A DNA stretch of 64,000 nt, taken from Auricularia sp. M13. Lineage: Eukaryota; Basidiomycota; Agaricomycetes; Auriculariales; Auriculariaceae. Position numbers and translations under genes: made by a program. The notes under the pieces are model-generated. The model worked only from the letters and a program-made list of their open reading frames with translations. It made no database searches and had not been told where the DNA came from. The DNA lies in NCBI GenBank assembly GCA_037042915.1, contig CM073196.1, forward strand, positions 4,487,742 to 4,551,741. Direction: 5' to 3'. Shown here in pieces: positions 1,071 to 64,000 of the stretch. Position 1 is the first letter of the stretch. Every line of letters starts with the position of its first letter.

Positions 1071-1090
1071 CTTAGGAGTGATATCAGTTT

Positions 1091-11072: not shown

Positions 11073-11150
11073 TCGTCGTTGTCTACCGCCGTCGCCGTCG
11101 CCGTTGCATGCGACGAGAGCTTGGATCGCGGTCGGGTAGCCAGCGTCGGA

Positions 11151-12794: not shown

Positions 12795-13165
12795 TATTAG
12801 TATGTCGCCCGATCCTGATAGTATCAGGACAAAAAGCCTCCACAGGGCCTAAATCATGGGGTATGGGTATGCAATGTACCTAGAAAATTAGGTTTGACCT
12901 AGTAGAATGTTTTTCAGTTGGTGCCGGAATTTTTGATGCAATATATGGTAACATGGAGGATCACGATTGCCCTTGTCCATCACTTGTTCATCATTTGCTC
13001 ATCAGTCGCTCATCATTTGTTGATCCCTTGTGCATCACTTGTTGGAATGGAGGATAGCTGTGGAGCAGGCAGCCGGGCCGACGAGCGCACAAATGATGAA
13101 CGAGAGCTCAAAAAATGATGGACAAATGATGGACAAATGATGGACAAGGGCTCAACAAGGGGGTC
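12795..13165 (+). repeat. Relic unit of the subtelomeric repeat family
   Basis: It begins TATTAGTATGTCGCCC and continues with the hairpin TCCTGAT/ATCAGGA (loop AGT, 12813-12829), then AAAAAGCCTCC, GTTGGTGCCGGAATTTTTG, TTGTCCATCACTTG-type motifs, and inverted copies (AAATGATGGACAAATGATGG) before 13165. This is the same order of blocks as the head and flanks of the type A/B units, but strongly diverged and AT-shifted. It lies about 6.4 kb inside the main arrays, separated from them by a retroelement fragment. It is probably the oldest surviving copy. Confidence 0.8.
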
Positions 13166-13171
13166 ATGAGA

Positions 13172-13545
13172 AAAACGTGCGCACGTGCGCAAGGTGCGTG
13201 CGCAACATTAATTCAACCATAGAAGCCCATTTAGATAAGATATTGTCATCGTTGAAGGTGATTGTGGTAGCTATGATACCATTGCATGTGATTATCCAAC
13301 AACGGTCATCAAACCTTAAAAATCCACAGAGATATTGTTGATATACACATTTCAACTTGCGTGCGCACGTGCGCACGTGCGCAAAACTAACGTGCGCCTG
13401 CGCACGCACTGCGCACGCATGTTGCAAGTATGCGCACGCAAGTTTGCAAGATGCGCACGCTATTGAAATGCGTGCGCAAAGATGCTCACGCGCTGTGCAC
13501 GCAAGTTGGAACCTTGCGCACGCACTCTTGGAACATGCGCACGCA
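13172..13545 (+). repeat. CG-rich minisatellite, ~21-bp period
   Basis: Copies of TGCGCACGCA spaced 21 bases apart are clear at about 13410, 13431, 13452, 13514 and 13535, with the spacer roughly resembling AGTTTGCAAGA. Alternating CGTGCGCACGTGCGCA blocks flank an AT-rich insert (about 13205-13355). The runs of CGCACG are self-complementary and could adopt Z-DNA or cruciform forms; that is inference. Confidence 0.75.
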
Positions 13546-13550
13546 GTCGT

Positions 13551-14265
13551 TGTTACGCCCGTGCCCCGGTCCGCGGACCTCACGTGCTCCCGGCATCACT
13601 CGGCGTCATTCTACGTCACTCGGTCAACTCGGTCAAGCTCCCGAATACCCGGCTTATCTCCCCTCGTGTTCATATGCTCGGGATATGTTCTCCTCATCGT
13701 CCTCTACCTCTAGACCTCTCCCTCACTTCTCTAGCTTCTCTCCTTACTCGCATACATCCACCTAACTCGCCTTGTCCCTACTGTATCGATAGTGTTCATA
13801 TCCGGTTCGCTCCACTCGTCTTAGTCATTCGCCTCTCGTCATTCGCCCGATCCCCCGATACCTTACCCACTCGCTCTTACTCATCCTATCGGCCGATGAC
13901 GACGATCTCTATTGATCTGAGGCCCCCTCTCCTTCGTCTCTAGGATACACTCCGAGTACATCGGATCACCTCCCCAGGTATAAAAGACCCTCGACTTTGT
14001 ATCTAGCTCCCCAGTTACGAAATCGACATAGTCGTGCCCCTCGCACGCCCTATCTCTCTCTCTCGACTTCGCCTCTGGGTTCTTCCCTCGCCCGACTTAC
14101 TCGTCTGAGTCCTCCGTTGCTCGTGGTCCCTTCGGTCGTGCTACTCGACGTAGCCGGTGTGCTCAATAACGCACCGAAGGCTCTAGTTGTTCGTTCGAGT
14201 GTTCTCTGCGCCCGGACGTTCGACTATCCTTGCAACCAAAACCCCAAGACACAGCAGGCTTAACA
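13551..14265 (+). mobile_element. Candidate LTR of an LTR retrotransposon
   Basis: Starts TGTTACGCCC and ends GGCTTAACA, which are roughly inverted ends of the TG...CA type. The stretch is pyrimidine-rich, carries a TATAAAAG box at 13979-13986, and is followed about 30 bases later by a gag-like reading frame. The matching second LTR is absent because the element is cut at 14916. The LTR boundaries therefore rest on end motifs only, without a pair to compare or a target-site duplication. Confidence 0.5.
13979..13986 (+). promoter_or_regulatory. TATA box in candidate LTR
   Basis: TATAAAAG in a CT-rich context, about 320 bases before the gag-like ATG. This is the expected place for the U3 promoter of an LTR element. 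Confidence 0.5.
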
Positions 14266-14274
14266 GTATTTCGT

Positions 14275-14295
14275 AACTCGAGCTCCGCTCGAGTT
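14275..14295 (+). other. Perfect 8-bp hairpin before gag start
   Basis: Arms AACTCGAG and CTCGAGTT with loop CTCCG lie two bases before the gag-like ATG at 14298. In the transcript this would form a stable stem-loop in the leader. It may be a structural element near a primer-binding or packaging site, or chance. Confidence 0.55.
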
Positions 14296-14297
14296 GT

Positions 14298-14916
14298 ATG
14301 GCCTTTGGGACTCGACAGAATCTCAGAAGAAACCAGGAAGAACCTCATCCTCTACTCGACTCCCCCGACGCTATCCTTCGCGAAGCCCGTCGTCAGGCTC
14401 GTCTTCGCGACCAACAACCTCCTCAGCCGGGTACGCCTTCGCCATCAGTCTCGATGTCGGGCACTAGCCGCTTCAGATCATCTCGGCACTCGCAACCGCC
14501 GAACGATGATGACGAAATCCTCTCGCAACACACTCTCTCCGGCTCGCTTCACACCTCGCGTTTCTCGCCGGCCCAGTCCACACTACGCGTGGACCCGAGC
14601 GGTTCCTACCCTCCCTCAAGTCACACGACGCGATCGCCTTCGCATCCCTCGACTCACTCGCTCGGCTCTCGACACCCTCTCGCGCTCGTTCCGTACACCG
14701 GCTCTCGCTCGACTCCTCGTTTTTCGCAGCAGTCCTCGTCGTTCCGCGGCTTCTTCCCATCCGGCACCCCTAACACGCCCCGGCGTGGCGGCGGGGGTGG
14801 CGGAGGAGGCGGCGGAGGTGGCGGCGGTGGAGGCGGAGGCGGCGGAGGCGGCGGTGGTGGCCATCGAGGTGCTCCCTCGCCCTCGTCGCACCACTCGCAC
14901 CACTCGCACCACTCGC
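14298..14916 (+). pseudogene. Truncated gag-like ORF of LTR retrotransposon
   Basis: The ATG at 14298 opens a Ser/Pro/Arg/Gln-rich frame (LDSPDAILREARRQARLRDQ, then QPPQPGTPSPSVSMSGTS, later PSGTPNTPRRGG). A run of about 25 Gly (14784-14861) and Ser-His-His repeats encoded by three CACCACTCG copies (14889-14915) follow. This composition is typical of the N-terminal part of basidiomycete Ty3-type gag, but no capsid core, zinc knuckle, protease or polymerase follows. The frame runs straight into TTAGG repeats, which supply the stop. The rest of the element is missing: the chromosome was apparently broken here and capped with telomeric DNA. The gag assignment rests on composition and position after a putative LTR. 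Confidence 0.5.
14784..14861 (+). repeat. GGN trinucleotide tract (poly-Gly)
   Basis: About 26 consecutive GGC/GGA/GGT triplets. The G-rich plus strand could form G-quadruplexes. It ends 55 bases before the junction with telomeric repeats. Confidence 0.9.
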
Positions 14917-14939
14917 TAAGGTTAGGTTAGGTTAGGTTA
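14917..14939 (+). repeat. Interstitial telomeric repeats (TAAGG, 3x TTAGG, TTA)
   Basis: TAAGG, three TTAGG and a final TTA, in the same orientation as the terminal telomere at 63946-64000. The left neighbour is the cut gag frame; the right neighbour is the exact left end of E1 (ATGCTCATAG). This looks like a former chromosome end. Confidence 0.9.
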
Positions 14940-16415
14940 ATGCTCATAGATGCCTAGAATCTGGCTAGGCTATTCGACGAAATAATTCGAAGTGATATAT
15001 TGCCAGATAGCCCTTTTCAATGCGGTCACGATGGTATAGCAAGACTGGGATTTTGATAAGCGCCGGGATGGGAAATTGCGAAATAGAGTTCCCGATGGAC
15101 CCGGCATGATCCGGCTTCGTAAAAATATGCTAAATTGGGGGAATATTGGTGGAAAGGTATCCCCAAGGTATCATGGGTGGGGGACCACTGGATGCCGGGA
15201 TATTGATTGTACCTTCCTTATTGGGATGGTATGCATCACTGTTATGTCATTACATGTTCACAATGTGAATTTGGAGAACTATAGGAGCAGCAGCAGACTG
15301 AATAAAATATTTTAATCAGGTTGAGAAGATATGAGAAACAGGAATTCGAACTATGGTGAATGTTGATGACAATAGATTAACATAGTTCATGCAGACACAC
15401 ATGACCGCTGTTGGCTCATCATGCCACTGGCCAGACTGACTCAAGTGTGATCCAGAGGACATGTTCTGCTTGCTGGGGTCTTTGCTTTTGATACCAGGGT
15501 CCCTGGCCCAGCGGACTTCAGCCTGGAGCAGCAACTTGGATGCTTCCGGGCCGTCGGAAGCATACAAGAAGTTGTATGCTTCCGGGCCGCCGCCCACACA
15601 TGACCGCTGTTGGCTCATCATGCCACTGGCCAGACTGACTCAAGTGTCATCCAGAGGACATGTTCTGCTTGCTGGGGTCTTTGCTTGTGATACCAGGGTC
15701 CCTGGCCCAGCGGACTTCAGGCTGGAGCAGCAACTTGGATGCTTCCGGGCCGCCGCCCACACATGACTGCTGTTGGCTCATCATGCCACTGGCCAGACTG
15801 ACTCAAGTGTCATCCAGAGGACATGTTCTGCTTGCTGGGGTCTTTGCTTGTGATACCAGGGTCCCTGGCCCAGCGGACTTCAGGCTGGAGCAGCAACTTG
15901 GATGCTTCCGGGCCGTCGGAAGCATACAAGAAGTTGTATGCTTCCGGGCCGCCGCCCACACATGACCGCTGTTGGCTCATCATGCCACTGGCCAGACTGA
16001 CTCAAGTGTCATCCAGAGGACATGTTCTGCTTGCTGGGGTCTTTGCTTTTGATACCACGGTCCCCGGCCCAGCGGACTGACCCCAATGCCTCAACTTGGA
16101 TGCTTCCGGGCCGTCGGAAGCATACAAGAAGTTGTATGCTCAGATGGTCTTCATCTTCTTTGTCGATGTGCAGTCTAACACGGCGTCAGTGTGAGCCTTG
16201 CAGGTGCATGACCAGCCCATACGTTCCCCGGAAGGCATGGGAAATTGATGGTTGTTGACAGAGCGGCGACTTGAGCGTGCTGGAGTTTGCAGACGGCGCA
16301 CTGGTGCCGCAGCGCGCAGGGGTTGATTACTTACCATTCCCTGCTCAGTGCTCAGTGCGTGTCAATATACCGGAACACGGCATGTACGAGGCCGGTGCCC
16401 TACCGGTGCTGGGGG
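14940..16415 (+). mobile_element. E1 copy 1, subtelomeric element
   Basis: Starts ATGCTCATAGAT followed by a hairpin (GCCTAG / CTAGGC, loop AATCTGG, 14952-14970). The first ~450 bases are AT-rich relative to the surroundings and nearly identical to copies at 16429 and 18239. They are followed by a tandem array (15396-16140) and ~275 bases of other sequence up to 16415, where TTAGG repeats begin. A donor-like GTAAGT on the minus strand near 16330 hints at a gene fragment captured at the right side, but no protein is recognised. No reverse transcriptase, transposase or helicase frame is present. Confidence 0.7.
15396..16140 (+). repeat. Tandem array of 199/163-bp units in E1 copy 1
   Basis: Units start at 15396, 15595, 15758 and 15957 with lengths 199, 163, 199 and a diverging last one. 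Each begins CACACATGACCGCTGTTGG and contains ACATGTTCTGCTTGCTGGGG. The long form has 36 extra bases that include a perfect palindrome (12-bp arms, loop GAAG; 15556-15583 and 15918-15945, a third one degenerate near 16116-16140). Because 199 is not a multiple of three, the short frames reading MFCLLGSLL shift between units and are not taken as coding. Confidence 0.9.
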
Positions 16416-16428
16416 TAAGGTTAGGTTA
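16416..16428 (+). repeat. Interstitial telomeric repeats (TAAGG, TTAGG, TTA)
   Basis: A second internal telomeric remnant, joining the right end of E1 copy 1 (GCTGGGGG) to the exact left end of E1 copy 2 (ATGCTCATAG). Orientation matches the terminal telomere. Confidence 0.85.
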
Positions 16429-16706
16429 ATGCTCATAGATGCCTAGAATCTGGCTAGGCTATTCGACGAAATAATTCGAAGTGATATATTGCCAGATAGC
16501 CCTTTTCAATGCGGTCACGATGGTATAGCAAGACTGGGATTTTGATAAGCGCCGGGATGGGAAATTGCGAAATAGAGTTCCCGATGGACCCGGCATGATC
16601 CGGCTTCGTAAAAATATGCTAAATTGGGGGAATATTGGTGGAAAGGTATCCCCAAGGTATCATGGGTGGGGGACCACTGGATGCCGGGATATTGATTGTA
16701 CCTTCC
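16429..16706 (+). mobile_element. E1 copy 2, truncated on the right
   Basis: About 278 bases nearly identical to the start of E1 copy 1, including the terminal hairpin. It is cut after ACCTTCC and joined directly to the left end of unit B0. Confidence 0.9.
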
Positions 16707-18238
16707 TATTAATATGTCGCCCGGATCTCATGGTATGAGATCCAAAAGGTTCCTGCGCCACGGAAACGAGGAAGGGGGGCTCGGCGCTGACTCGCAAAAT
16801 TATGTTGGGCCCGACAGTTCGACTGAGGGTTGGTGCCGGAATTTTGCGAGCCCCACGGCACTCTGCGTGCAAAGCGCGTTTTGGCCTTGTCCATCACTTG
16901 CCCATCATTTGTCCATCACTTGTCCGCGATTTGTCCATCATTTGTCCGACAAGAGACCGTCAAGAGCTTCCAGGGACTCCAAATGAGAGCAGACACCCCG
17001 ACGGCCATATATCTCCGGAAGGCTGACGATCGTGGCTACGCGATGGTGTCGCTACCTCGGCCGTCCGTTGCCAAAGCAACCCGGAATACCTGCCGATGTC
17101 ACGAAACCCGGACAAGGAGCCGTATCTCCGCGAGGGGTGCAGCTAAACTCGCGGGACGACGAGCGCACGCATTCTGGACGAGAGCCCAACAAATCCCCGA
17201 CAAATGATGGACAAATGATGGACAAGGCGTCGACAAGGAGCCGTATCTCGACGAGGAGTGCAGCCGAAACCGCGGGACGAAGACCAAACACGTTCCAGAC
17301 GTGAGCCCGACCGATTGCCAACAAATGATGGACAAATGATGGACAAGGGACCGACAAGAGCCAATTGCGACCCCAGTTGGACCCCGATCGTCGGACACCC
17401 ATATATCTCCGGGGAGCTCTCGCGAGGGTCTACGCGATGGTACCCTTCACGAGGCTGTGCGCCGTCGTGGCAACGCGCAATTTTCGCCGATGCGACAAAA
17501 TCCGAAATGGGCGACCGCAGACCCTGCCGAGGTTACCTTCCGGAGTCTTCCCCGCGTGCTGGACGACCATCCGATGGGCGGTGCCAAAATACGAACCCTG
17601 CCGATCGAGTTTTGACTGCGCTGTGAAGTGCCGAAGGCAGATCGGGAGACTCGTGGGACCGAGTCAGAGACATCCATATATGACCTGAGAGCTGCCGAAG
17701 ACGCCGATCCGATGCACTGGAAGCCTGGGATCTGCAGGGACCGTGTCCAGGTGTCCAGACCTGATCGCAGTCTGCTGCAAGATCTGCACATGCCAAAGTG
17801 TGTCTCGCTTCGTCCCTGGCGCTCGTCGAGGCCTGAAACTTCTCTGCGCACCATGTCGGGACACTGGGGGCTCATTTGCAGGGGAAACGGCACAAAATCG
17901 CAGAATCCGAAGCCCGCCGACGCTGTCGGACTGGCCTCGATTTGGGGGGTTTGCGGGTGCACGGCTCGGGAGCCTGTCGGTCTGCCCACCGATCGGCCGT
18001 GTTTGGCTGGCAGCAGGCAAAAGGACCCTGCCGATAGTCTGAGCATCCTCGACCTTTGGCCAGGAGAAAGGAAGTCCCACTCAACCGGGGCTGAATACGT
18101 TCTTCCGACTTGGTCTCATCAGCAAAGCCGATTGGAAGCGTGCCGGTCTTTCTTGGAGATCGGAATGCAGCATGTCGGATCTGCAACGAGGAAAATTCCA
18201 GCTCCCCGGAACAGTTTCAACCGTGCGAATGGGTGCTA
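16707..18238 (+). repeat. Unit B0, single older type B repeat
   Basis: Begins TATTAATATGTCGCCC with the type B hairpin (arms GGATCTCAT and ATGAGATCC). It follows the type B consensus to the end but carries more substitutions than the main B array and lacks the last ~45 bases, where E1 copy 3 starts. The isolated position and greater divergence suggest it predates the 40-61 kb array. Confidence 0.9.
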
Positions 18239-19244
18239 ATGCTCATAGATGCCTAGAATCTGGCTAGGCTATTCGACGAAATAATTCGAAGTGATATATT
18301 GCCAGATAGCCCTTTTCAATGCGGTCACGATGGTATAGCAAGACTGGGATTTTGATAAGCGCCGGGATGGGAAATTGCGAAATAGAGTTCCCGATGGACC
18401 CGGCATGATCCGGCTTCGTAAAAATATGCTAAATTGGGGGACTATTGGTGGAAAGGTATCCCCAAGGTATCATGGGTGGGGGACCACTGGATGCCGGGAT
18501 ATTGATTGTACCTTCCTTATTGGGATGGTATGCATCACTGTTATGTCATTACATGTTCACAATGTGAATTTGGAGAACTATAGGAGCAGCAGCAGACTGA
18601 ATAAAATATTTTAATCAGGTTGAGAAGATATGAGAAACAGGAATTCGAACTATGGTGAATGTTGATGACAATAGATTAACATAGTTCATGCAGACACACA
18701 TGACCGCTGTTGGCTCATCATGCCACTGGCCAGACTGACTCAAGTGTGATCCAGAGGACATGTTCTGCTTGCTGGGGTCTTTGCTTGTGATACCAGGGTC
18801 CCTGGCCCAGCGGACTTCAGGCTGGAGCAGCAACTTGGATGCTTCCGGGCCGCCGCCCACACATGACTGCTGTTGGCTCATCATGCCACTGGCCAGACTG
18901 ACTCAAGTGTCATCCAGAGGACATGTTCTGCTTGCTGGGGTCTTTGCTTTTGATACAAGGGTCCCTGGCCCAGCGGACTTCAGGCTGGAGCAGCAACTTG
19001 GATGCTTCCGGGCCGTCGGAAGCATACAAGAAGTTGTATGCTTCCGGGCCGCCGCCCACACATGACCGCTGTTGGCTCATCGTGCCACTGGCCAGACTGA
19101 CTCAAGTGTCATCCAGAGGACATGTTCTGCTTGCTGGGGTCTTTGCTTTTGATACCAGGGTCCCTGGCCCAGCGGACTTCAGCCTGGAGCAGCAACTTGG
19201 ATGCTTCCGGCACCTCCAGCTCCAGCTCACAGCTTCTGTCACCT
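18239..19244 (+). mobile_element. E1 copy 3, truncated on the right
   Basis: Starts AATGCTCATAGATGCC without TTAGG in front and matches E1 copy 1 through the AT-rich part. It then has a tandem array with units from 18695 (163), 18858 (199) and 19057 (cut). A full palindrome lies at 19018-19045. It ends in a short CTCCAGCTCCAGC-like stretch and joins the first type A unit at 19245. Confidence 0.88.
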
Positions 19245-22200
19245 CTTAATATGTCGCCCGATCCTGATGGTATCAGGACGAAAAGCTTCCAGGGGACGCA
19301 ATATCGGAGATAGCCGGTCGGCGGAACGTCATAAAATTATCGACGCCCTCAGAAAACATTCCGGAGTTGGTGCCGGAATTTTGTGTGGCCCGTGGCAGGC
19401 TGCGTGCAAAGCGCCTGTCGGCCTTGTCCATCATTTGTGCATCATTTGTGCATCACTTGTTGATGGCTTGTCCGTCATTTGTTGATGGCTTGTCCATCAT
19501 TTGTTGGCCCGGTTGGTGTGAAGCCAATGCACCGAGTTGAACGCGGACAACGAACAAAGTCGACACGAACGACAGGCAAGAGGCCAGCAAATGATGGACG
19601 AGAGCCCAGCAAATCACCAACGAATGATGGACAAATGATGAACAAGGCGTCGACAAGGAGCCGTATCTCCGCGAGGGGAGCAGCTAAACTCGCGGGACGA
19701 CGAGCGAACGCATTCTGGACGAGAGCCCAACGAATCACCAACGAATGATGAACAAATGATGGACAAGAGCTCAACAAGGAGCCGTAGCGCAACGAGGAGT
19801 GCAGCTGAAACCGCGGGACGAAGAGCAAACCCATTCCAGACATGCAGCCGACCGATCACCAACAAATGATGGACAAATGATGGACGAGGGACCGACAAGA
19901 GCCAATTGCGACCCCAACTGGATCCCGATCGCCGGACACCCATATAACTCCGGGGAGCTCTCGCCGAGGTCTACGCGATGGTACCCTTCGCGAGGCTGTG
20001 CGCCGTCATGGCAACGCGCAATTTCCGCCGATGCGACAAAATCCGAAATGGGCGACCGCAGACCCTGCCGAGGTTACCTTCCGGAGTCTTCCCGGCGTGC
20101 TGGACGACCACCCGATGGGCGGTGCCAAAATACGAACCCTGCCGATCGAGTTTTGACTGCGCTGTGAAGTGCCGAAGGCAGATCGGGAGACTCGTGGGAC
20201 CGAGTCAGAGACATCCATATATGACCTGAGAGCTGCCGAAGACGCCGATCCGATGCACTGGAAGCCTGGGATCTGCAGGGACCGTGTCCAGGTGTCCAGA
20301 CCTGATCTCACTCTGCCGCAGGATTTGCAGATGCCAAACTGGGTCTGGCTTCGTCCCTGGCGCTCGTCGAGGCCTGAAACTTCTCTGCGCACCATGTCGG
20401 GACACTGGGGGCTCAGATCCAGGGGAAAAGGCACAAAATCGCAGAATCCGAAGCCCGCCGACGCTGTCGGACTGGCCTCGATTTGGGGCTTTGGGGGTGC
20501 GCGGCTCGGGAGCCTGTTCGGTCTGCCCCACCGATCGGCTGTGTTTGGCTGGCAGAAGGCAAAAGGACTCTGCCGATAGTCTGAGCATCCTCGACCTTTG
20601 GCCAGGAGAAAGGAAGTCACACTCAACCGGGGCTGAATACGTTCTTCCGACTTGGTTTCGTCAGCTAAGCCGATTGGAAGCGTGCCCATCTTTCTCGGCG
20701 ATCGTGATGCCGCATGTCTGATCTGCAACGAGAAAAATTCCAGCTCCCCGGAACAGTTTCAACCGTGCGAATCGGTGCACCGGTCGTGCCGCTGCGAGTC
20801 GGCCGAGGTCCCAGAACATCTTAATATGTCGCCCGATCCTGATGGTATCAGGACGAAAAGCTTCCAGGGGACGCAATATCGGAGATAGCCGGTCGGCGGA
20901 ACGTCATAAAATTATCGACGCCCTCAGAAAACATTCCGGAGTTGGTGCCGGAATTTTGTGTGGCCCGTGGCAGGCTGCGTGCAAAGCGCCTGTCGGCCTT
21001 GTCCATCATTTGTGCATCATTTGTGCATCACTTGTTGATGGCTTGTCCGTCATTTGTTGATGGCTTGTCCATCATTTGTTGGCCCGGTTGGTGTGAAGCC
21101 AATGCACCGAGTTGAACGCGGACAACGAACAAAGTCGACACGAACGACAGGCAAGAGGCCAGCAAATGATGGACGAGAGCCCAGCAAATCACCAACGAAT
21201 GATGGACAAATGATGAACAAGGCGTCGACAAGGAGCCGTATCTCCGCGAGGGGAGCAGCTAAACTCGCGGGACGACGAGCGAACGCATTCTGGACGAGAG
21301 CCCAACGAATCACCAACGAATGATGAACAAATGATGGACAAGAGCTCAACAAGGAGCCGTAGCGCAACGAGGAGTGCAGCTGAAACCGCGGGACGAAGAG
21401 CAAACCCATTCCAGACATGCAGCCGACCGATCACCAACAAATGATGGACAAATGATGGACGAGGGACCGACAAGAGCCAATTGCGACCCCAACTGGATCC
21501 CGATCGCCGGACACCCATATACCTCCGGGGAGCTCTCGCCGAGGTCTACGCGATGGTACCCTTCGCGAGGCTGTGCGCCGTCATGGCAACGCGCAATTTC
21601 CGCCGATGCGACAAAATCCGAAATGGGCGACCGCAGACCCTGCCGAGGTTACCTTCCGGAGTCTTCCCGGCGTGCTGGACGACCACCCGATGGGCGGTGC
21701 CAAAATACGAACCCTGCCGATCGAGTTTTGACTGCGCTGTGAAGTGCCGAAGGCAGATCGGGAGACTCGTGGGACCGAGTCAGAGACATCCATATATGAC
21801 CTGAGAGCTGCCGAAGACGCCGATCCGATGCACTGGAAGCCTGGGATCTGCAGGGACCGTGTCCAGGTGTCCAGACCTGATCTCACTCTGCCGCAGGATT
21901 TGCAGATGCCAAACTGGGTCTGGCTTCGTCCCTGGCGCTCGTCGAGGCCTGAAACTTCTCTGCGCACCATGTCGGGACACTGGGGGCTCAGATCCAGGGG
22001 AAAAGGCACAAAATCGCAGAATCCGAAGCCCGCCGACGCTGTCGGACTGGCCTCGATTTGGGGCTTTGGGGGTGCGCGGCTCGGGAGCCTGTTCGGTCTG
22101 CCCCACCGATCGGCTGTGTTTGGCTGGCAGAAGGCAAAAGGACTCTGCCGATAGTCTGAGCATCCTCGACCTTTGGCCAGGAGAAAGGAAGTCACACTCA

Positions 22201-39719: not shown

Positions 39720-40208
39720 CTTAATATGTGCCCGATCCTGATGGTATCAGGACGAAAAGCTTCCAGGGGACGCAATATCGGAGATAGCCGGTCATTTGCA
39801 GGCGGAACGTCATAAAATTATCGACGCCCTCAGAAAACATTCCGGAGTTGGTGCCGAATTTTGTGTGGCCCGTGGCAGGCTGCGTGCAAAGCGCCTGTCG
39901 GCCTTGTCCATCATTTGTGCATCATTTGTGCATCACTTGTTGATGGCTTGTCCGTCATTTGTTGATGGCTTGTCCATCATTTGTTGGCCCGGTTGGTGTG
40001 AAGCCAATGCACCGAGTTGAACGCGGACAACGAACAAAGTCGACACGAACGACAGGCAAGAGGCCAGCAAATGATGGACGAGAGCCCAGCAAATCACCAA
40101 CGAATGATGGACAAATGATGAACAAGGCGTCGACAAGGAGCCGTATCTCCGCGAGGGGAGCAGCTAAACTCGCGGGACGACGAGCGAACGCATTCTGGAC
40201 GAGAGCCC
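39720..40208 (+). repeat. Type A unit 14, truncated at 489 bp
   Basis: The left end is intact in position but has extra small indels (TTAATATGTGCCC, ATTTGCAGGCGG). It is cut inside the subrepeat after GGACGAGAGCCC, where the first type B unit starts. The elevated damage in this last unit suggests that it was once exposed as a chromosome end or assembled from poorer reads. Confidence 0.9.
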
Positions 40209-52200: not shown

Positions 52201-55200
52201 GCAAGATCTGCACACGCCAAAGTGTGTCTCGCTTCGTCCCTGGCGCTCGTCGAGGCCTGAAACTTCTCTGCGCACCATGTCGGGACACTGGGGGCTCATT
52301 TGCAGGGGAAACGGCACAAAATCGCAGAATCCGAAGCCCGCCGACGCTGTCGGACTGGCCTCGATTTGGGGCTTTTGGGGGTGCGCGGCTCGGGAGCCTG
52401 TCGGTCTGCCCACCGATCGGCCGTGTTTGGCTGGCAGCAGGCAAAAGGACGCTGCCGATAGTCTGAGCATCCTCGACCTTTGGCCAGGAGAAAGGAAGTC
52501 CCACTCAACCGGGGCTTAATACGTTCTTCCGACTTGGTCTCGTCAGCGAAGCCGATTGGAAGCGTGCCCGTCTTTCTTGGCGATCGGAATGCAGCATGTC
52601 GGATCTGCGACGAGAAAATTCCAGCTCCCGGAACAGTTTCAACCGTGCGAATCGGTGCGCCGGTCGTGCCGCTGCGAGTGGGCCGAGGTCCCGGAAGATA
52701 TTAATATGTCGCCCGGATCTCATGGTATGAGATCCAAAAGGTTCCTGCGCCACGGAAACGAGGAAGGGGGCTTGGCGCTGACTCGCAAAATTATGTTGGG
52801 CCCGGCAGTTCGATTGAGGGTTGGTGCCGGAATTTTGCGAGCCCCACGGCACTCTGCGTGCAAAGCGCGTTTTGGCCTTGTCCATCACTTGCCCATCATT
52901 TGTCCATCACTTGTCCGCGATTTGTCCATCATTTGTCCGACAAGAGACCGTCAAGAGCTTCCAGGGACTCCAAATGAGAGCAGACACCCCGACAGCCATA
53001 TATCTCCGGAAGGCTGACGATCGTGGCTCGCGATGGTGTCGCTACCTCGGCCGTCCGTTGCCAAAGCAACCCGGAATACCTGCCGATGTCATGAAACCCG
53101 GACAAGGAGCCGTATCTCCGCGAGGGGTGCAGCTAAACTCGCGGGACGACGAGCGCACGCATTCTGGACGAGAGCCCGACAAATCCCCGACAAATGATGG
53201 ACAAATGATGGACAAGGCGTCGACAAGGAGCCGTATCTCGACGAGGAGTGCAGCCGAAACCGCGGGACGAAGACCAAACACGTTCCAGACGTGAGCCCGA
53301 CCGATTGCCAACAAATGATGGACAAATGATGGACAAGGGACCGACAAGAGCCAATTGCGACCCCAGTTGGACCCCGATCGTCGGACACCCATATATCTCC
53401 GGGGAGCTCTCGCGAGGGTCTACGCGATGGTACCATTCACGAGGCTGTGCGCCGTCATGGCAACGCGCAATTTTCGCCGATGCGACAAAATCCGAAATGG
53501 GCGACCGCAGACCCTGCCGAGGTTACCTTCCGGAGTCTTCCGGCGTGCTGGACGACCATCCGATGGGCGGTGCCAAAATACGAACCCTGCCGATCGAGGT
53601 TTGACTGCGCTGTGAAGTGCCGAAGGCAGATCGTGAGACTCGTGGGACCGAGTCAGAGACATCCAGACATGACCTGAGAGCTGCCGAAGACGCCGATCGG
53701 ATGCACAGGAAGCCTGGGATCTGCAGGGACCGTGTCCAGACCTGATCGCACTCTGCTGCAAGATCTGCACACGCCAAAGTGTGTCTCGCTTCGTCCCTGG
53801 CGCTCGTCGAGGCCTGAAACTTCTCTGCGCACCATGTCGGGACACTGGGGGCTCATTTGCAGGGGAAACGGCACAAAATCGCAGAATCCGAAGCCCGCCG
53901 ACGCTGTCGGACTGGCCTCGATTTGGGGCTTTTGGGGGGGTGCGCGGCTCGGGAGCCTGTCGGTCTGCCCACCGATCGGCCGTGTTTGGCTGGCAGCAGG
54001 CAAAAGGACGCTGCCGATAGTCTGAGCATCCTCGACCTTTGGCCAGGAGAAAGGAAGTCCCACTCAACCGGGGCTTAATACGTTCTTCCGACTTGGTCTC
54101 GTCAGCGAAGCCGATTGGAAGCGTGCCCGTCTTTCTTGGCGATCGGAATGCAGCATGTCGGATCTGCGACGAGAAAAATTCCAGCTCCCCGGAACAGTTT
54201 CAACCGTGCGAATCGGTGCGCCGGTCGTGCCGCTGCGAGTGGGCCGAGGTCCCGGAAGATATTAATATGTCGCCCGGATCTCATGGTATGAGATCCAAAA
54301 GGTTCCTGCGCCACGGAAACGAGGAAGGGGGGCTTGGCGCTGACTCGCAAAATTATGTTGGGCCCGGCAGTTCGATTGAGGGTTGGTGCCGGAATTTTGC
54401 GAGCCCCACGGCACTCTGCGTGCAAAGCGCGTTTTGGCCTTGTCCATCACTTGCCCATCATTTGTCCATCACTTGTCCGCGATTTGTCCATCATTTGTCC
54501 GACAAGAGACCGTCAAGAGCTTCCAGGGACTCCAAATGAGAGCAGACACCCCGACAGCCATATATCTCCGGAAGGCTGACGATCGTGGCTACGCGATGGT
54601 GTCGCTACCTCGGCCGTCCGTTGCCAAAGCAACCCGGAATACCTGCCGATGTCATGAAACCCGGACAAGGAGCCGTATCTCCGCGAGGGGTGCAGCTAAA
54701 CTCGCGGGACGACAGCGCACGCATTCTGGACGAGAGCCCGACAAATCCCGACAAATGATGGACAAATGATGGACAAGGCGTCGACAAGGAGCCGTATCTC
54801 GACGAGGAGTGCAGCCGAAACCGCGGGACGAAGACCAAACACGTTCCAGACGTGAGCCCGACCGATTGCCAACAAATGATGGACAAATGATGGACAAGGG
54901 ACCGACAAGAGCCAATTGCGACCCCAGTTGGACCCCGATCGTCGGACACCCATATATCTCCGGGGAGCTCTCGCGAGGGTCTACGCGATGGTACCATTCA
55001 CGAGGCTGTGCGCCGTCATGGCAACGCGCAATTTTCGCCGATGCGACAAAATCCGAAATGGGCGACCGCAGACCCTGCCGAGGTTACCTTCCGGAGTCTT
55101 CCCGGCGTGCTGGACGACCATCCGATGGGCGGTGCCAAAATACGAACCCTGCCGATCGAGGTTTGACTGCGCTGTGAAGTGCCGAAGGCAGATCGTGAGA

Positions 55201-58200
55201 CTCGTGGGACCGAGTCAGAGACATCCAGACATGACCTGAGAGCTGCCGAAGACGCCGATCGGATGCACAGGAAGCCTGGGATCTGCAGGGACCGTGTCCA
55301 GACCTGATCGCACTCTGCTGCAAGATCTGCACACGCCAAAGTGTGTCTCGCTTCGTCCCTGGCGCTCGTCGAGGCCTGAAACTTCTCTGCGCACCATGTC
55401 GGGACACTGGGGGCTCATTTGCAGGGGAAACGGCACAAAATCGCAGAATCCGAAGCCCGCCGACGCTGTCGGACTGGCCTCGATTTGGGGCTTTTGGGGG
55501 TGCGCGGCTCGGGAGCCTGTCGGTCTGCCCACCGATCGGCCGTGTTTGGCTGGCAGCAGGCAAAAGGACGCTGCCGATAGTCTGAGCATCCTCGACCTTT
55601 GGCCAGGAGAAAGGAAGTCCCACTCAACCGGGGCTTAATACGTTCTTCCGACTTGGTCTCGTCAGCGAAGCCGATTGGAAGCGTGCCCGTCTTTCTTGGC
55701 GATCGGAATGCAGCATGTCGGATCTGCGACGAGAAAAATTCCAGCTCCCCGGAACAGTTTCAACCGTGCGAATCGGTGCGCCGGTCGTGCCGCTGCGAGT
55801 GGGCCGAGGTCCCGGAAGATATTAATATGTCGCCCGGATCTCATGGTATGAGATCCAAAAGGTTCCTGCGCCACGGAAACGAGGAAGGGGGGCTTGGCGC
55901 TGACTCGCAAAATTATGTTGGGCCCGGCAGTTCGATTGAGGGTTGGTGCCGGAATTTTGCGAGCCCCACGGCACTCTGCGTGCAAAGCGCGTTTTGGCCT
56001 TGTCCATCACTTGCCCATCATTTGTCCATCACTTGTCCGCGATTTGTCCATCATTTGTCCGACAAGAGACCGTCAAGAGCTTCCAGGGACTCCAAATGAG
56101 AGCAGACACCCCGACAGCCATATATCTCCGGAAGGCTGACGATCGTGGCTACGCGATGGTGTCGCTACCTCGGCCGTCCGTTGCCAAAGCAACCCGGAAT
56201 ACCTGCCGATGTCATGAAACCCGGACAAGGAGCCGTATCTCCGCGAGGGGTGCAGCTAAACTCGCGGGACGACGAGCGCACGCATTCTGGACGAGAGCCC
56301 GACAAATCCCGACAAATGATGGACAAATGATGGACAAGGCGTCGACAAGGAGCCGTATCTCGACGAGGAGTGCAGCCGAAACCGCGGGACGAAGACCAAA
56401 CACGTTCCAGACGTGAGCCCGACCGATTGCCAACAAATGATGGACAAATGATGGACAAGGGACCGACAAGAGCCAATTGCGACCCCAGTTGGACCCCGAT
56501 CGTCGGACACCCATATATCTCCGGGGAGCTCTCGCGAGGGTCTACGCGATGGTACCATTCACGAGGCTGTGCGCCGTCATGGCAACGCGCAATTTTCGCC
56601 GATGCGACAAAATCCGAAATGGGCGACCGCAGACCCTGCCGAGGTTACCTTCCGGAGTCTTCCGGCGTGCTGGACGACCATCCGATGGGCGGTGCCAAAA
56701 TACGAACCCTGCCGATCGAGGTTTGACTGCGCTGTGAAGTGCCGAAGGCAGATCGTGAGACTCGTGGGACCGAGTCAGAGACATCCAGACATGACCTGAG
56801 AGCTGCCGAAGACGCCGATCGGATGCACAGGAAGCCTGGGATCTGCAGGGACCGTGTCCAGACCTGATCGCACTCTGCTGCAAGATCTGCACACGCCAAA
56901 GTGTGTCTCGCTTCGTCCCTGGCGCTCGTCGAGGCCTGAAACTTCTCTGCGCACCATGTCGGGACACTGGGGGCTCATTTGCAGGGGAAACGGCACAAAA
57001 TCGCAGAATCCGAAGCCCGCCGACGCTGTCGGACTGGCCTCGATTTGGGGCTTTTGGGGGTGCGCGGCTCGGGAGCCTGTCGGTCTGCCCACCGATCGGC
57101 CGTGTTTGGCTGGCAGCAGGCAAAAGGACGCTGCCGATAGTCTGAGCATCCTCGACCTTTGGCCAGGAGAAAGGAAGTCCCACTCAACCGGGGCTTAATA
57201 CGTTCTTCCGACTTGGTCTCGTCAGCGAAGCCGATTGGAAGCGTGCCCGTCTTTCTTGGCGATCGGAATGCAGCATGTCGGATCTGCGACGAGAAAAATT
57301 CCAGCTCCCGGAACAGTTTCAACCGTGCGAATCGGTGCGCCGGTCGTGCCGCTGCGAGTGGGCCGAGGTCCCGGAAGATATTAATATGTCGCCCGGATCT
57401 CATGGTATGAGATCCAAAAGGTTCCTGCGCCACGGAAACGAGGAAGGGGGCTTGGCGCTGACTCGCAAAATTATGTTGGGCCCGGCAGTTCGATTGAGGG
57501 TTGGTGCCGGAATTTTGCGAGCCCCACGGCACTCTGCGTGCAAAGCGCGTTTGGCCTTGTCCATCACTTGCCCATCATTTGTCCATCACTTGTCCGCGAT
57601 TTGTCCATCATTTGTCCGACAAGAGACCGTCAAGAGCTTCCAGGGACTCCAAATGAGAGCAGACACCCCGACAGCCATATATCTCCGGAAGGCTGACGAT
57701 CGTGGCTACGCGATGGTGTCGCTACCTCGGCCGTCCGTTGCCAAAGCAACCCGGAATACCTGCCGATGTCATGAAACCCGGACAAGGAGCCGTATCTCCG
57801 CGAGGGGTGCAGCTAAACTCGCGGGACGACGAGCGCACGCATTCTGGACGAGAGCCCGACAAATCCCGACAAATGATGGACAAATGATGGACAAGGCGTC
57901 GACAAGGAGCCGTATCTCGACGAGGAGTGCAGCCGAAACCGCGGGACGAAGACCAAACACGTTCCAGACGTGAGCCCGACCGATTGCCAACAAATGATGG
58001 ACAAATGATGGACAAGGGACCGACAAGAGCCAATTGCGACCCCAGTTGGACCCCGATCGTCGGACACCCATATATCTCCGGGGAGCTCTCGCGAGGGTCT
58101 ACGCGATGGTACCATTCACGAGGCTGTGCGCCGTCATGGCAACGCGCAATTTTCGCCGATGCGACAAAATCCGAAATGGGCGACCGCAGACCCTGCCGAG

Positions 58201-60500
58201 GTTACCTTCCGGAGTCTTCCCGGCGTGCTGGACGACCATCCGATGGGCGGTGCCAAAATACGAACCCTGCCGATCGAGGTTTGACTGCGCTGTGAAGTGC
58301 CGAAGGCAGATCGTGAGACTCGTGGGACCGAGTCAGAGACATCCAGACATGACCTGAGAGCTGCCGAAGACGCCGATCGGATGCACAGGAAGCCTGGGAT
58401 CTGCAGGGACCGTGTCCAGACCTGATCGCACTCTGCTGCAAGATCTGCACACGCCAAAGTGTGTCTCGCTTCGTCCCTGGCGCTCGTCGAGGCCTGAAAC
58501 TTCTCTGCGCACCATGTCGGGACACTGGGGGCTCATTTGCAGGGGAAACGGCACAAAATCGCAGAATCCGAAGCCCGCCGACGCTGTCGGACTGGCCTCG
58601 ATTTGGGGCTTTTGGGGGGGTGCGCGGCTCGGGAGCCTGTCGGTCTGCCCACCGATCGGCCGTGTTTGGCTGGCAGCAGGCAAAAGGACGCTGCCGATAG
58701 TCTGAGCATCCTCGACCTTTGGCCAGGAGAAAGGAAGTCCCACTCAACCGGGGCTTAATACGTTCTTCCGACTTGGTCTCGTCAGCGAAGCCGATTGGAA
58801 GCGTGCCCGTCTTTCTTGGCGATCGGAATGCAGCATGTCGGATCTGCGACGAGAAAATTCCAGCTCCCGGAACAGTTTCAACCGTGCGAATCGGTGCGCC
58901 GGTCGTGCCGCTGCGAGTGGGCCGAGGTCCCGGAAGATATTAATATGTCGCCCGGATCTCATGGTATGAGATCCAAAAGGTTCCTGCGCCACGGAAACGA
59001 GGAAGGGGGGCTTGGCGCTGACTCGCAAAATTATGTTGGGCCCGGCAGTTCGATTGAGGGTTGGTGCCGGAATTTTGCGAGCCCCACGGCACTCTGCGTG
59101 CAAAGCGCGTTTTGGCCTTGTCCATCACTTGCCCATCATTTGTCCATCACTTGTCCGCGATTTGTCCATCATTTGTCCGACAAGAGACCGTCAAGAGCTT
59201 CCAGGGACTCCAAATGAGAGCAGACACCCCGACAGCCATATATCTCCGGAAGGCTGACGATCGTGGCTACGCGATGGTGTCGCTACCTCGGCCGTCCGTT
59301 GCCAAAGCAACCCGGAATACCTGCCGATGTCATGAAACCCGGACAAGGAGCCGTATCTCCGCGAGGGGTGCAGCTAAACTCGCGGGACGACGAGCGCACG
59401 CATTCTGGACGAGAGCCCGACAAATCCCCGACAAATGATGGACAAATGATGGACAAGGCGTCGACAAGGAGCCGTATCTCGACGAGGAGTGCAGCCGAAA
59501 CCGCGGGACGAAGACCAAACACGTTCCAGACGTGAGCCCGACCGATTGCCAACAAATGATGGACAAATGATGGACAAGGGACCGACAAGAGCCAATTGCG
59601 ACCCCAGTTGGACCCCGATCGTCGGACACCCATATATCTCCGGGGAGCTCTCGCGAGGGTCTACGCGATGGTACCATTCACGAGGCTGTGCGCCGTCATG
59701 GCAACGCGCAATTTTCGCCGATGCGACAAAATCCGAAATGGGCGACCGCAGACCCTGCCGAGGTTACCTTCCGGAGTCTTCCCGGCGTGCTGGACGACCA
59801 TCCGATGGGCGGTGCCAAAATACGAACCCTGCCGATCGAGGTTTGACTGCGCTGTGAAGTGCCGAAGGCAGATCGTGAGACTCGTGGGACCGAGTCAGAG
59901 ACATCCAGACATGACCTGAGAGCTGCCGAAGACGCCGATCGGATGCACAGGAAGCCTGGGATCTGCAGGGACCGTGTCCAGACCTGATCGCACTCTGCTG
60001 CAAGATCTGCACACGCCAAAGTGTGTCTCGCTTCGTCCCTGGCGCTCGTCGAGGCCTGAAACTTCTCTGCGCACCATGTCGGGACACTGGGGGCTCATTT
60101 GCAGGGGAAACGGCACAAAATCGCAGAATCCGAAGCCCGCCGACGCTGTCGGACTGGCCTCGATTTGGGGCTTTGGGGGGGTGCGCGGCTCGGGAGCCTG
60201 TCGGTCTGCCCACCGATCGGCCGTGTTTGGCTGGCAGCAGGCAAAAGGACGCTGCCGATAGTCTGAGCATCCTCGACCTTTGGCCAGGAGAAAGGAAGTC
60301 CCACTCAACCGGGGCTTAATACGTTCTTCCGACTTGGTCTCGTCAGCGAAGCCGATTGGAAGCGTGCCCGTCTTTCTTGGCGATCGGAATGCAGCATGTC
60401 GGATCTGCGACGAGAAAAATTCCAGCTCCCCGGAACAGTTTCAACCGTGCGAATCGGTGCGCCGGTCGTGCCGCTGCGAGTGGGCCGAGGTCCCGGAAGA
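40209..60500 (+). repeat. Type B satellite: 13 head-to-tail ~1561-bp units
   Basis: Unit starts (TATTAATATG): 40209, 41772, 43332, 44893, 46455, 48020, 49579, 51141, 52699, 54260, 55820, 57379, 58938. Lengths are 1558-1565. The terminus is shared with type A, but the hairpin stem differs (GGATCTCAT / ATGAGATCC). The head diverges from type A, while the last ~1 kb is closely similar. Each unit carries the CATATATCTCCGG module twice (40508 and 40901 in unit 1), where type A has it once. Direct TTGTCCATCA motifs and inverted ACAAATGATGG arrays are kept. Many single-base length changes sit in G or A runs. No gene is supported. Confidence 0.95.
44485..44515 (+). repeat. Type A patch inside a type B unit
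   Basis: Unit 43332-44892 reads CTCAGATCCAGGGGAAAAGG, as type A does, where the other type B units read CTCATTTGCAGGGGAAACGG. Flanks on both sides are type B. This is a short conversion tract. Confidence 0.85.
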
Positions 60501-61390
60501 TATTAATATGTCGCCCGGATCTCATGGTATGAGATCCAAAAGGTTCCTGCGCCACGGAAACGAGGAAGGGGGGCTTGGCGCTGACTCGCAAAATTATGTT
60601 GGGCCCGGCAGTTCGATTGAGGGTTGGTGCCGGAATTTTGCGAGCCCCACGGCACTCTGCGTGCAAAGCGCGTTTTGGCCTTGTCCATCACTTGCCCATC
60701 ATTTGTCCATCACTTGTCCGCGATTTGTCCATCATTTGTCCGACAAGAGACCGTCAAGAGCTTCCAGGGACTCCAAATGAGAGCAGACACCCCGACAGCC
60801 ATATATCTCCGGAAGGCTGACGATCGTGGCTACGCGATGGTGTCGCTACCTCGGCCGTCCGTTGCCAAAGCAACCGGAATACCTGCCGATGTCATGAAAC
60901 CCGGACAAGGAGCCGTATCTCCGCGAGGGTGCAGCTAAACTCGCGGGACGACGAGCGCACGCATTCTGGACGAGAGCCCGACAAATCCCGACAAATGATG
61001 GACAAATGATGGACAAGGCGTCGACAAGGAGCCGTATCTCGACGAGGAGTGCAGCCGAAACCGCAGGACGAAGACCAAACACGTTCCAGACGTGAGCCCG
61101 ACCGATTGCCAACAAATGATGGACAAATGATGGACAAGGGACCGACAAGAGCCAATTGCGACCCCAGTTGGACCCCGATCGTCGGACACCCATATATCTC
61201 CGGGGAGCTCTCGCGAGGGTCTACGCGATGGTACCATTCACGAGGCTGTGCGCCGTCATGGCAACGCGCAATTTTCGCCGATGCGACAAAATCCGAAATG
61301 GGCGACCGCAGACCCTGCCGAGGTTACCTTCCGGAGTCTTCCCGGCGTGCTGGACGACCATCCGATGGGCGGTGCCAAAATACGAACCCT
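60501..61390 (+). repeat. Type B unit 14, truncated at 890 bp
   Basis: A normal type B left end and body, cut after AATACGAACCCT. A new unit with a type A head begins at 61391. Confidence 0.93.
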
Positions 61391-62204
61391 CTTAATATGT
61401 CGCCCGATCCCGATGGTATCAGGATGAAAAGCTTCCAGGGGACGCAATATCGGAGATAGCCGGTCGGCGGAACGTCAGAAAATTATCGACGCCCTCAGAA
61501 AACATTCCGGAGTTGGTGCCGGAATTTTGTGTGGCCCCTGGCAGGCTGCGTGCAAAGCGCCTGTCGGCCTTGTCCATCATTTGTGCATCATTTGTCCATC
61601 ACTTGTCCGCGATTTGTCCATCATTTGTCCGACAAGAGACCGTCAAGAGCTTCCAGGGACTCCAAATGAGAGCAGACACCCCGACAGCCATATATCTCCG
61701 GAAGGCTGACGATCGTGGCTACGCGATGGTGTCGCTACCTCGGCCGTCCGTTGCCAAAGCAACCCGGAATACCTGCCGATGTCACGAAACCCGGACAAGG
61801 AGCCGTATCTCCGCGAGGGGTGCAGCTAAACTCGCGGGACGACGAGCGAACGCATTCTGGACGAGAGCCCAACGAATCACCAACGAATGATGAACAAATG
61901 ATGGACAAGAGCTCAACAAGGAGCCGTAGCGCAACGAGGAGTGCAGCTGAAACCACGGGACGAAGAGCAAACCCATTCCAGACATGAACCCGACCGATCA
62001 CCAACAAATGATGGACAAATGATGGACAAGGGACCGACAAGAGCCAATTGCGACCCCAGTTGGACCCCGATCGTCGGACACCCATATATATCCGGGAGCT
62101 CGCGAGGGTCTACGCGATGGTACCCTTTGCGAGGCTGTGCGCCGTCATGGCAACGCGCAATTTCCGCCGACGCGACAAAATCCGAAATGGGCGACCGCAG
62201 ACCC
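61391..62204 (+). repeat. Chimeric A/B unit, truncated at 814 bp
   Basis: The head is type A (CTTAATATGTCGCCCGATCC; one stem base changed, giving a C-A mismatch). It switches to type B within the TTTGTCCATCA motifs near 61590, returns to type A-like text near 61850 (AACGAATCACCAACGAATGA), then ends with mixed text. It is cut after GCAGACCC, where the type C unit starts. The switches fall in shared motifs, as expected of homologous exchange or template switching. Confidence 0.88.
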
Positions 62205-62500
62205 TATTAATATGTCGCCTTTCTTTGATGACATCAAAGAAAAAAGCTTCCTGAGGGGGGGTATCGCACGCTGTGACCCAAAATGAAAATCCTCCATATA
62301 GCCCAATGTCTTAAGAAATTTCTGCATTTGGTCCGAGATTTTTCTGATCAATATTCATCTCAGGGGAAATTATCCAAAATAATGGTGTATTCCAGCCAGC
62401 GCCAGCAAACCAGCAAACCAGCAAAGCAGCAAACCAGCAAATTTTGGTGATGCACAAATGTTTGTGATGGGCTCTGTGACTATGCACACAGGTGCTGCCA
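62205..62500 (+). repeat. Type C unit head
   Basis: Starts TATTAATATGTCGCC, then a 10-pair hairpin (62220-62242; arms TTTCTTTGAT and ATCAAAGAAA, loop GAC) and AAAAAGCTTCC. A block like the GTTGGTGCCGGAATTTTG of A/B occurs as TTTGGTCCGAGATTTTTC. The rest is unlike A or B and AT-richer. A CCAGCAAA octamer repeats about five times at 62397-62442. Confidence 0.85.
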
Positions 62501-63040
62501 TCAGGTAGATTTGCCCATCATGAAAATTTGTCCATCACCGAAATTTGCCCATCACGTATATTTGCTGAACCCACAGAGGCGCTGCCATCACCGAAATTTG
62601 TCCATCATCAAAATTTGTCCATCACCGAAATTTGCCCATCACCGAAATTTGTCCATCAGGAAAATTTGCCCATCACGAATATTTGCTGAACCCACAGACG
62701 CGCTGCCATCACCGAAATTTGCCCATCACCGAAATTTGCCCATCATCAAAATTTGTCCATCACGAAAATTTGCCCATCCCCAAAATTTGCCCATCACCGA
62801 AATTTGCCCATCACTGAAATTTGCCCATCACCGAAATTTGCCCATCACGTATATTTGCTGAACCCACAGAGGCGCTGCCATCACCGAAATTTGTCCATCA
62901 TCAAAATTTGTCCATCACCAAAATTTGCCCATCACGAAAATTTGCCCATCACGAATATTTGCTGAACCCACAGAGGCGCTGCCATCACCGAAATTTGACC
63001 ATCATCAAAATTTGTCCATCACAAAAATTTGCCCATCACA
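62501..63040 (+). repeat. 17-bp minisatellite with higher-order spacing (type C)
   Basis: About 23 copies of a 17-mer of the form CCGAAATTTGCCCATCA, alternating T/C in TTTGYCCATCA. They are interrupted four times (near 62562, 62685, 62856, 62960) by TGCTGAACCCACAG plus a GCGCTGCCATCACC segment. The core TTTGYCCATCA is the same motif that recurs in type A and B units and in the relic. Confidence 0.92.
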
Positions 63041-63945: not shown

Positions 63946-64000
63946 TTAGGTTAGGTTAGGTTAGGTTAGGTTAGGTTAGGTTAGGTTAGGTTGGGTTAGG
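63946..64000 (+). repeat. Telomere, (TTAGG)n
   Basis: Eleven pentamers: nine TTAGG, one TTGGG (63991-63995) and a last TTAGG, running to the end of the window. The G-rich strand reads outward, so this is the right chromosome end. The repeat is five bases long throughout. Confidence 0.95.

Follow-up and report, generated by a model that had tools for sequence, protein, structure and literature searches.

Hairpin-ended units joined at CC in the chromosome-end DNA of Auricularia sp. M13

Layout of the chromosome end and its unit families

The window analysed here is a stretch of 64,000 nucleotides of the basidiomycete Auricularia sp. M13 (GCA_037042915.1, contig CM073196.1, positions 4,487,742 to 4,551,741), the last 64 kb of the 4.55-Mb contig C4 in a genome of 52.1 Mb and 14 contigs; contigs are written C with a number, and unit families with a letter alone. 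Four types of unit (relic, A, B and C) lie in its distal part, and all four begin, on the chromosome side, with a common terminus of the form T[A/C]TTA[A/G/C]TATGTCGCC, followed by a hairpin with a three-base loop. The structure is real, repeated and unusual; the joining of the units to CC, their one-sided truncation and a pattern suggestive of end addition go beyond the original prediction, which concerned the hairpins. The features are as follows.

12795..13157, plus strand: relic unit of 363 bases, TATTAGTATGTCGCC, hairpin TCCTGAT/ATCAGGA, joined after CC
13158..14914, no strand assigned: dispersed repeat next to the relic, present at many places in the genome and Ty3/gypsy-like as judged by eye
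14915..16706, plus strand: two E2 segments, each beginning in TTAGG repeats (near 14918 and 16416), the second cut by a B unit
16707..18236, plus strand: single B unit, after CC of E2, distal end truncated
18237..19243, plus strand: third E2 segment, starting TAATGCTC, without a TTAGG tract
19244..40208, plus strand: A array of 13 full units (1573-1578 bases each), its first unit following CC and its last unit cut short at CC
40209..61389, plus strand: B array of 13 full units (1558-1565 bases each), its first unit following CC within an A unit and its last unit cut short at CC
61390..62204, plus strand: A' unit, its stem with a single mismatch, following CC within a B unit and cut short at CC
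62205..63935, plus strand: C unit with hairpin TTTCTTTGAT/ATCAAAGAAA, following CC within the A' unit and matching other C copies to 63935
62205..62242, minus strand: C terminal hairpin, the stem lying 15 nt before the joined end
63946..64000, plus strand: TTAGG telomere repeats, right end of C4, after the truncated C unit and 10 unmatched bases

Read from the inside outward, the layers are relic, dispersed repeat, E2 on telomere repeats twice, B, E2, A array, B array, A', C and telomere, and from the A array outward every unit layer starts at a cut in the preceding unit. The 13 full units of each array are nearly identical (mean pairwise identity 99.87% in A and 99.93% in B), and internal junctions read AGAACA^TCTTAATATG in A and GGAAGA^TATTAATATG in B, where the caret marks the joint. 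The unit at 39719 has a damaged terminus and an intact hairpin. The distance between stem and joined end on the minus strand is 15 nt in C, 16 in B and 18 in A.

The terminus TTARTATGTCGCC, with up to two mismatches, has 32 matches in the window, all on the plus strand, against a mean of 1.06 and a maximum of 4 in shuffles (n=100). In the genome, TATTAATATGTCGCC has 179 matches and the reversed sequence none, and the B terminus with its loop and both arms (to the seventh base of the 3' arm) occurs at 167 places; positions for these two sets were taken from the matches listed (the first 100 of each). A search with C or T as the sixth base of the pattern gives 41 genome places versus 1 in the control, and uncovers a further family, D, with terminus T[A/C]TTACTATGTCGCC, stem GGCTTGAT/ATCAATCC, ATCAAGCC or ATCAGGCC, and loop ACC. 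D forms arrays, with a period of about 1,152 bases, at three contig ends (C7 right, C10 right and C13 left), and further copies lie on C2, C6, C7, C11 and C12.

The unit bodies are related to different degrees. A and B are 83% identical, C gives no blast match to A or B at E up to 1e-5, and the relic body, its own inverted repeats aside, matches nothing elsewhere; at C2:2612908 a B terminus and hairpin sit on a diverged body, about 70% like A and B. The 10-mer TTG[CT]CCATCA, which may be a protein-binding site, has 21 copies in C, 8 in B, 5 in A and 4 in the relic, and none in E2, in window positions 1-12794 or in the gypsy-like stretch. Two loci on C2, L063 and L011, hold mosaic units in which the terminus reverts to other unit sequence after a few bases, a patchwork that looks like template switching. 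At the right end of C3 and the left end of C4 the contigs stop inside B units with no telomere repeats, and because they end there, the arrays must be longer than assembled.

The remaining features are not units. The dispersed repeat, which lies outside the relic unit, was checked by search over 13158-13540 and by eye over the remainder. The proximal 12.8 kb of the window includes a GDSL lipase-like frame at 1889-2614, and none of eight other frames scanned from 1-14930 scores above a family cut-off. Segment E2 (TTAATGCTCATAGATGCC...) starts in TTAGG repeats at C1:1081405, C2:5173238, C4:4502673, C4:4504162, C5:25954, C8:1866761, C11:3215844 and C12:1206410, a count of eight that is biased because the search pattern itself contained TTAGG; two copies, at window position 18237 and at C9:3689196, start without it. 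E2 has its own stem, GCCTAG/CTAGGC, near its start, and segments E3, E4 and E5 likewise follow TTAGG tracts where read.

Pairing and paired changes in the terminal stem

The original prediction held that a shared terminus is followed at once by a hairpin whose stem differs between families, is perfectly paired in each, and has changed on both arms together. The terminus and hairpin, with the stems as claimed, are present in the relic (12795), A (from 19244), B (16707 and from 40209) and C (62205). In letter-shuffled 25-mers, the chance of a stem at least as long with a three-base loop is 5.4e-4 for A, 2e-5 for B and 1e-5 for C. Pairing is perfect in the relic, A, B and C stems, but not in the A' unit at 61390, where a C.A mismatch lies mid-stem; A' is present also on C2, C7 and C11, and when folded as single-stranded DNA it is equalled by 153 of 200 shuffles. 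Covariation across more than three families was to count as support, and a fourth stem, that of D, pairs too, with one C.T mismatch in the D arrays. As for copies that keep the terminus and lose the pairing, five exact pattern matches outside units have no hairpin (C9:2131368, C1:89871, C3:1770223, C1:9180509 and C7:305937) and look like chance, but the A' and D-array stems each depart from full pairing by one mismatch.

Pairing was quantified over 12 distinct starts, i.e., the relic, A and three A variants, two B, two C and three D. Of 105 stem cells, 90.5% pair (shuffle mean 73.0%), 21 cells are altered on both sides (shuffle mean 7.0), and the covariation score is 0.480 (shuffled mean 0.174); none of 500 shuffles reaches any of these three values. 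When the arms are slid by one to three columns, the maxima are 47.6% of cells paired, 6 double-changed cells and a score of 0.214. Double-sided changes that keep pairing occur at six of the nine stem pairs, which is not unusual (58 of 500 shuffles reach six), nor is the number of pair types (reached by 301 of 500). The stem rows are related and represent four independent stems, and the shuffles leave this relatedness in place. The original prediction is supported in part: constrained pairing at the end of a mobile or replicating unit has the score and the pairing of the D stem in its favour, with the pair counts and the small number of stems as cautions. In addition, quasi-palindrome template switching could produce paired changes without selection, and the D loop, ACC, which is the reverse complement of the GGT loop of A and B, is as expected of it.

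The same stems could instead be a palindromic site for a DNA-binding dimer, with the symmetry kept or made by quasi-palindrome template switching and the covariation reflecting protein binding or mutation bias. Such a site is suited by inverted repeats that are perfect or nearly so around a three-base spacer, by two innermost pairs that show no variation, and by the complementary D loop; yet the sequence of the stem as a whole differs between families, which a sequence-specific protein would hardly tolerate, and protein binding would not by itself explain the CC joins described below. We regard this explanation as quite improbable.

Which strand might carry a functional stem-loop was considered from single changes. 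About two wobble-keeping events favour the minus strand and one favours the plus strand, and paired changes are absent from an outer stem predicted for the minus strand. The argument that C.A and A.C mismatches on the plus strand, being G.U on the minus strand, identify a minus-strand RNA was rejected, since the D3 copy goes the opposite way and the outer stem lacks paired changes. A minus-strand covariance model built from 10 rows recovers known units in the examined loci down to E 1.6e-8 and finds nothing new that is convincing there, the best further match having E 0.066. A hammerhead ribozyme, suggested by CTGATG- and GAAA-like letters in the A and C stems, was likewise rejected: the B stem lacks these letters, Rfam has no match in the window at gathering score, and hammerhead is absent from the five weak matches over 12700-22500.

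Joins at CC and the distal side of the units

Outside array-internal junctions, the terminus is preceded by CC in 34 of 35 joins. The first set comprises 30 non-array starts in the examined loci, 29 of which are units, all following CC (29/29); the 30th is the chance match at C9:2131368, and one of the 29 (L049:2527) ends after 21 bases, short of the hairpin. The second set, six non-junction D starts, is independent of the making of the rule and gives five of six after CC; it leaves out the hairpin-less matches at C1:89871, C3:1770223, C1:9180509 and C7:305937, and four array junctions. By comparison, CC precedes 7.1% of positions in units A, B, C and E2. Joins were grouped by their 14-base flank, and independence is assumed.

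For 16 joins an unjoined version exists elsewhere, and in all 16 the join lies after the last C of the run. Where no unit is joined, the base that comes next is T in 11 cases, A in 4 and G in 1, against an expectation of 17.8% T after C-runs (p 1e-5); one continuation (L049:2548) is T in family A and C in A', and was counted as T. The uncut E2 at the site of the single B unit in the window reads CC^TTATTGG. Long, clean uncut versions are given by C9 versus C7 and C2 (CATACGCCC^TATTAAT versus CATACGCCC^TCCCGCG) and by C2 versus C6 (CCCAACC^TATTAAT versus CCCAACC^TAGGTCC). Just past CATACGCCC, C2 and C7 have another palindrome, with an 8-pair stem and a three-base loop, CGCGTTGC TCG GCAACGCG.

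The position within the unit is mostly fixed as well. Of 18 left boundaries of A-, B-, C-, D- or relic-like blocks against non-unit DNA in the examined loci, 16 lie at the terminus and two are mid-unit; this count excludes blocks at stretch edges, loci present in duplicate and two breaks internal to one unit (L054, L064), and the real mid-unit share may be higher because most of these loci were retrieved via the terminus.

On the distal side, the interrupted sequence never resumes at any of the nine joins where the continuation is known and the far side available. The far side is the next unit at a CC (in the window and on C2, C5, C7, C9, C11 and C12), TTAGG repeats (a case on C1, two on C11, and the window, 10 bases beyond C), E2, or other DNA (C5, the end of the C2 array, and C12), and no intact distal end is seen on any non-array unit in the examined loci. 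Among the matches listed, units within 100 kb of a contig end are oriented outward at 11 of 12 such ends, and units deep within C1, C6 and C11 have TTAGG tracts nearby, as expected of former ends. In mid-contig on C2, a rightward-pointing array of about 56 B units (2434890-2520744, plus strand) faces leftward-pointing units at 2595002-2612922 (minus strand) across 74 kb, as if two ends had fused head to head or the assembly had been joined there.

Longer segments of chromosome end are shared as well. The C2 and C7 copies of C are colinear over the 9 kb read, and C2, C7 and C9 have long end segments in common. Near element position 2943 (L053/L052) the C7 copy has an internal deletion of about 2.9 kb that is not seen in C9 or C2; AACCTAACC stands at the breakpoint, as though the broken end had met telomerase before being rejoined. 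An autonomous C element, suggested by a broken hAT-like stretch in the C9 copy, was considered and rejected, as C2 and C7 run kilobases past its end with a gypsy-like element. A 52-base match lies 14.7 kb from the C2 start of C, and we take C to be a chromosome-end segment rather than a defined autonomous unit.

This layout could alternatively result from ordinary recombination, in which break-induced replication and unequal exchange among subtelomeres spread old units, the hairpin and AT-rich terminus being a frequent breakpoint only. The near-identical arrays, the long segments common to C2, C7 and C9, the mosaic units of L063 and L011, and the two blocks that start mid-unit all accord with it, and telomere-seeded amplification is described in Pyricularia (PMC8381367), a process that E2 after TTAGG would fit. 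What speaks against it is that one donor base is common to 35 joins with unlike flanks and usually two to three bases of homology, whereas random microhomology repair would draw on many donor points. We consider ordinary recombination an unlikely explanation.

Proposed addition to chromosome ends

The unit end is mostly fixed, the chromosome contributes CC(T), the interrupted sequence does not return, and the units are layered. We tentatively prefer, at a little under even confidence, to interpret A, B, C, D and the relic as non-autonomous elements that are attached by the hairpin end to chromosome ends that have broken or eroded, much as telomeric retrotransposons go on 3' end first. In minus-strand reading, the hairpin would be a 3'-terminal stem-loop bound by an enzyme supplied elsewhere, and a chromosome 3' end ...CC(T) would prime copying from the hairpin end outward. 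A template ending ...ATTAATAGG would supply a two- to three-base CC(T) seed, which is our proposed reason for the preference for CC and T; in Magnaporthe, 19 of 24 new telomeres used seeds of 1-4 bases (PMC7367193). Our first choice of template would be RNA, with a reverse transcriptase doing the copying. We make it because the units agree with telomeric retrotransposons in polarity, in having one precise end and in being truncated at the other, and because unlike bodies with a common terminal stem-loop recall non-autonomous elements. Such elements can borrow the 3' tail of a partner. C, which is unlike A and B in body yet has the same terminus and hairpin, is counted in favour of end addition. 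Arrays would then grow and homogenise by recombination or circular templates, and erosion followed by telomerase would yield the truncated, TTAGG-capped forms.

Several observations weigh against this interpretation. The D join at C11:3196790 follows TC, and the two mid-unit blocks lack CC: one on C2 (L003:1104) starts at D position 855 after ...GGCTACATC, the other on C7 (L034:1232, unit orientation) at B position 118 after ...CTCTCACA. Array junctions have CC in D (AGAACC^) and not in A and B (AGAACA^ and GGAAGA^), so that unit-length templates would need an exact cut. The units at the left end of C5 (position 58000) point inward, D has no copy of TTG[CT]CCATCA (a related CTTNCCATCA occurs five times in it), and the long copies of C look like duplicated chromosome-end segments, which fit DNA copying better than RNA. 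There is no poly(A) at the joins, no transcript or circle of the units is known, and 10 frames of A, B and D units give no Pfam match at E up to 0.1.

The enzyme would be supplied from outside the units. Nine frames of the C9 copy of C give one weak DUF659 match (E 5e-4, 20.2 bits against a cut-off of 34.7), and nine frames of E2-E5 stretches (right end of C2, and C12) give a weak DUF3673 match and no reverse transcriptase. In MoTeR and FoTeR elements, at least one member has a reverse transcriptase with a REL endonuclease. No reverse transcriptase was found in the unit frames scanned; REL was not searched, nor was the Penelope reverse transcriptase separately. The genome has at least 150 RVT_1 matches (150 of 348 candidates scored), none tied to a unit, and two matches on C10 encode a telomerase RNA-binding domain.

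A rolling-circle element of the Helitron or IS91 kind would offer a different enzyme: a Rep protein would nick an element end marked by the hairpin, and one-ended transfer to CC^T would bring one or more tandem copies, or the whole distal arm of the donor, to a different chromosome end. The genome has 51 Helitron Rep N domain matches (some being pieces of one gene, several in frames of more than 2,000 aa), and a subterminal hairpin, tandem arrays and a fixed short target all fit its logic, as do the C segments common to C2, C7 and C9, which suit whole-arm transfer. Fungal Helitrons with tandem copies and joined ends are also reported (PMC5148889). Canonical Helitrons have 5' TC and 3' CTRR ends, an AT or TT target and a 3' hairpin (PMC5148889 and PMC4289320). 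Like them, including the non-canonical fungal Helitron2, the units occur as tandem copies in a genome with Rep genes and have, on the minus strand, a hairpin near the 3' end, with 7-10 pairs and a loop of 3, at 15-18 nt from the joined end rather than the canonical 10-12 nt or so. The termini, however, are not TC...CTRR: minus-strand ends are ...TTAATA or ...TTAAGA, those of D ...GTAAGA or GTAATA, and that of the relic CTAATA. Joins are made at CC^T (after CC in 34 of 35) and not at AT, TT or the FoHeli sites that have been reported; solo copies with both ends intact were not seen, and no Rep was found in the units. Among the matches listed, no terminus has any of the 51 Rep matches within 45 kb of it. 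A Rep element with unit ends was not found either, in a search with up to two mismatches that left out B by design and missed D, so that a diverged Rep partner could be missed; at the 3' flanks of Rep loci, copies are too diverged or run into tandem repeats for the Helitrons' own ends to be defined from them. On balance, rolling-circle transfer seems to us an unlikely source of the joins.

Among known systems, the units are best seen as a variant of chromosome-end-adding elements. They resemble MoTeR1 and MoTeR2 of Magnaporthe and FoTeR of Fusarium, as described in PMC7367193 and PMC12857005, in being chromosome-terminal, with one precise proximal end and mixed head-to-tail arrays. Those elements have the 5' end outward and occur as truncated copies, and MoTeR2 is regarded there as likely defective, with the MoTeR1 enzyme as its probable means of movement. 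Distal truncation with new telomere repeats is found here too (C1, C11 twice, and the window C after 10 bases). Unlike MoTeR and FoTeR, which insert in telomere repeats, A-D and the relic join at CC in non-telomeric DNA (it is E2-E5 that follow TTAGG), the array copies have no telomere repeats between them, and the unit frames scanned have no reverse transcriptase. The units have a covarying terminal hairpin, whereas the word hairpin occurs nowhere in the main text of PMC7367193 or PMC12857005.

Serial attachment at the chromosome end with truncation of the outer side is likewise a property of Drosophila HeT-A/TART and of rotifer terminons. To our knowledge HeT-A/TART is a system without telomerase, unlike the present genome, which encodes it, and terminons carry a Penelope-like reverse transcriptase, a gene not found in the unit frames scanned; Penelope-like telomeric elements also have a hammerhead ribozyme, the motif considered above for the A and C stems. 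The telomere-seeded amplification of Pyricularia (a 4-kb repeat with interstitial telomeres; PMC8381367) is like E2-E5 in its layered, truncated segments with short telomere tracts, and differs from the A-D joins, which start at one fixed base with no telomere tract. Hairpin-ended units joined at CC are not described in the available portions of PMC4289320, PMC7473861, PMC5148889, PMC8381367, PMC12857005 and PMC7367193, found in a literature collection that has few of the papers of subscription journals.

The joined end is nearly fixed on both partners, CC(T) on the chromosome and one base of the unit, in a genome that also encodes telomerase. New CC^TATTAATATG joins provide a simple, countable readout with which to seek the enzyme, and the layering of the arms shows, in relative order, how ends were lost and repaired. 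A broader possibility, which we hold to be improbable at present, is that a telomerase-bearing genome has a second, sequence-specific way of handling broken chromosomes, in which an exposed CC(T) 3' end would be extended through copying that starts at the fixed hairpin end of a few units. If this is true, the chromosome arms of this fungus would be a readable, layered record of past breaks.

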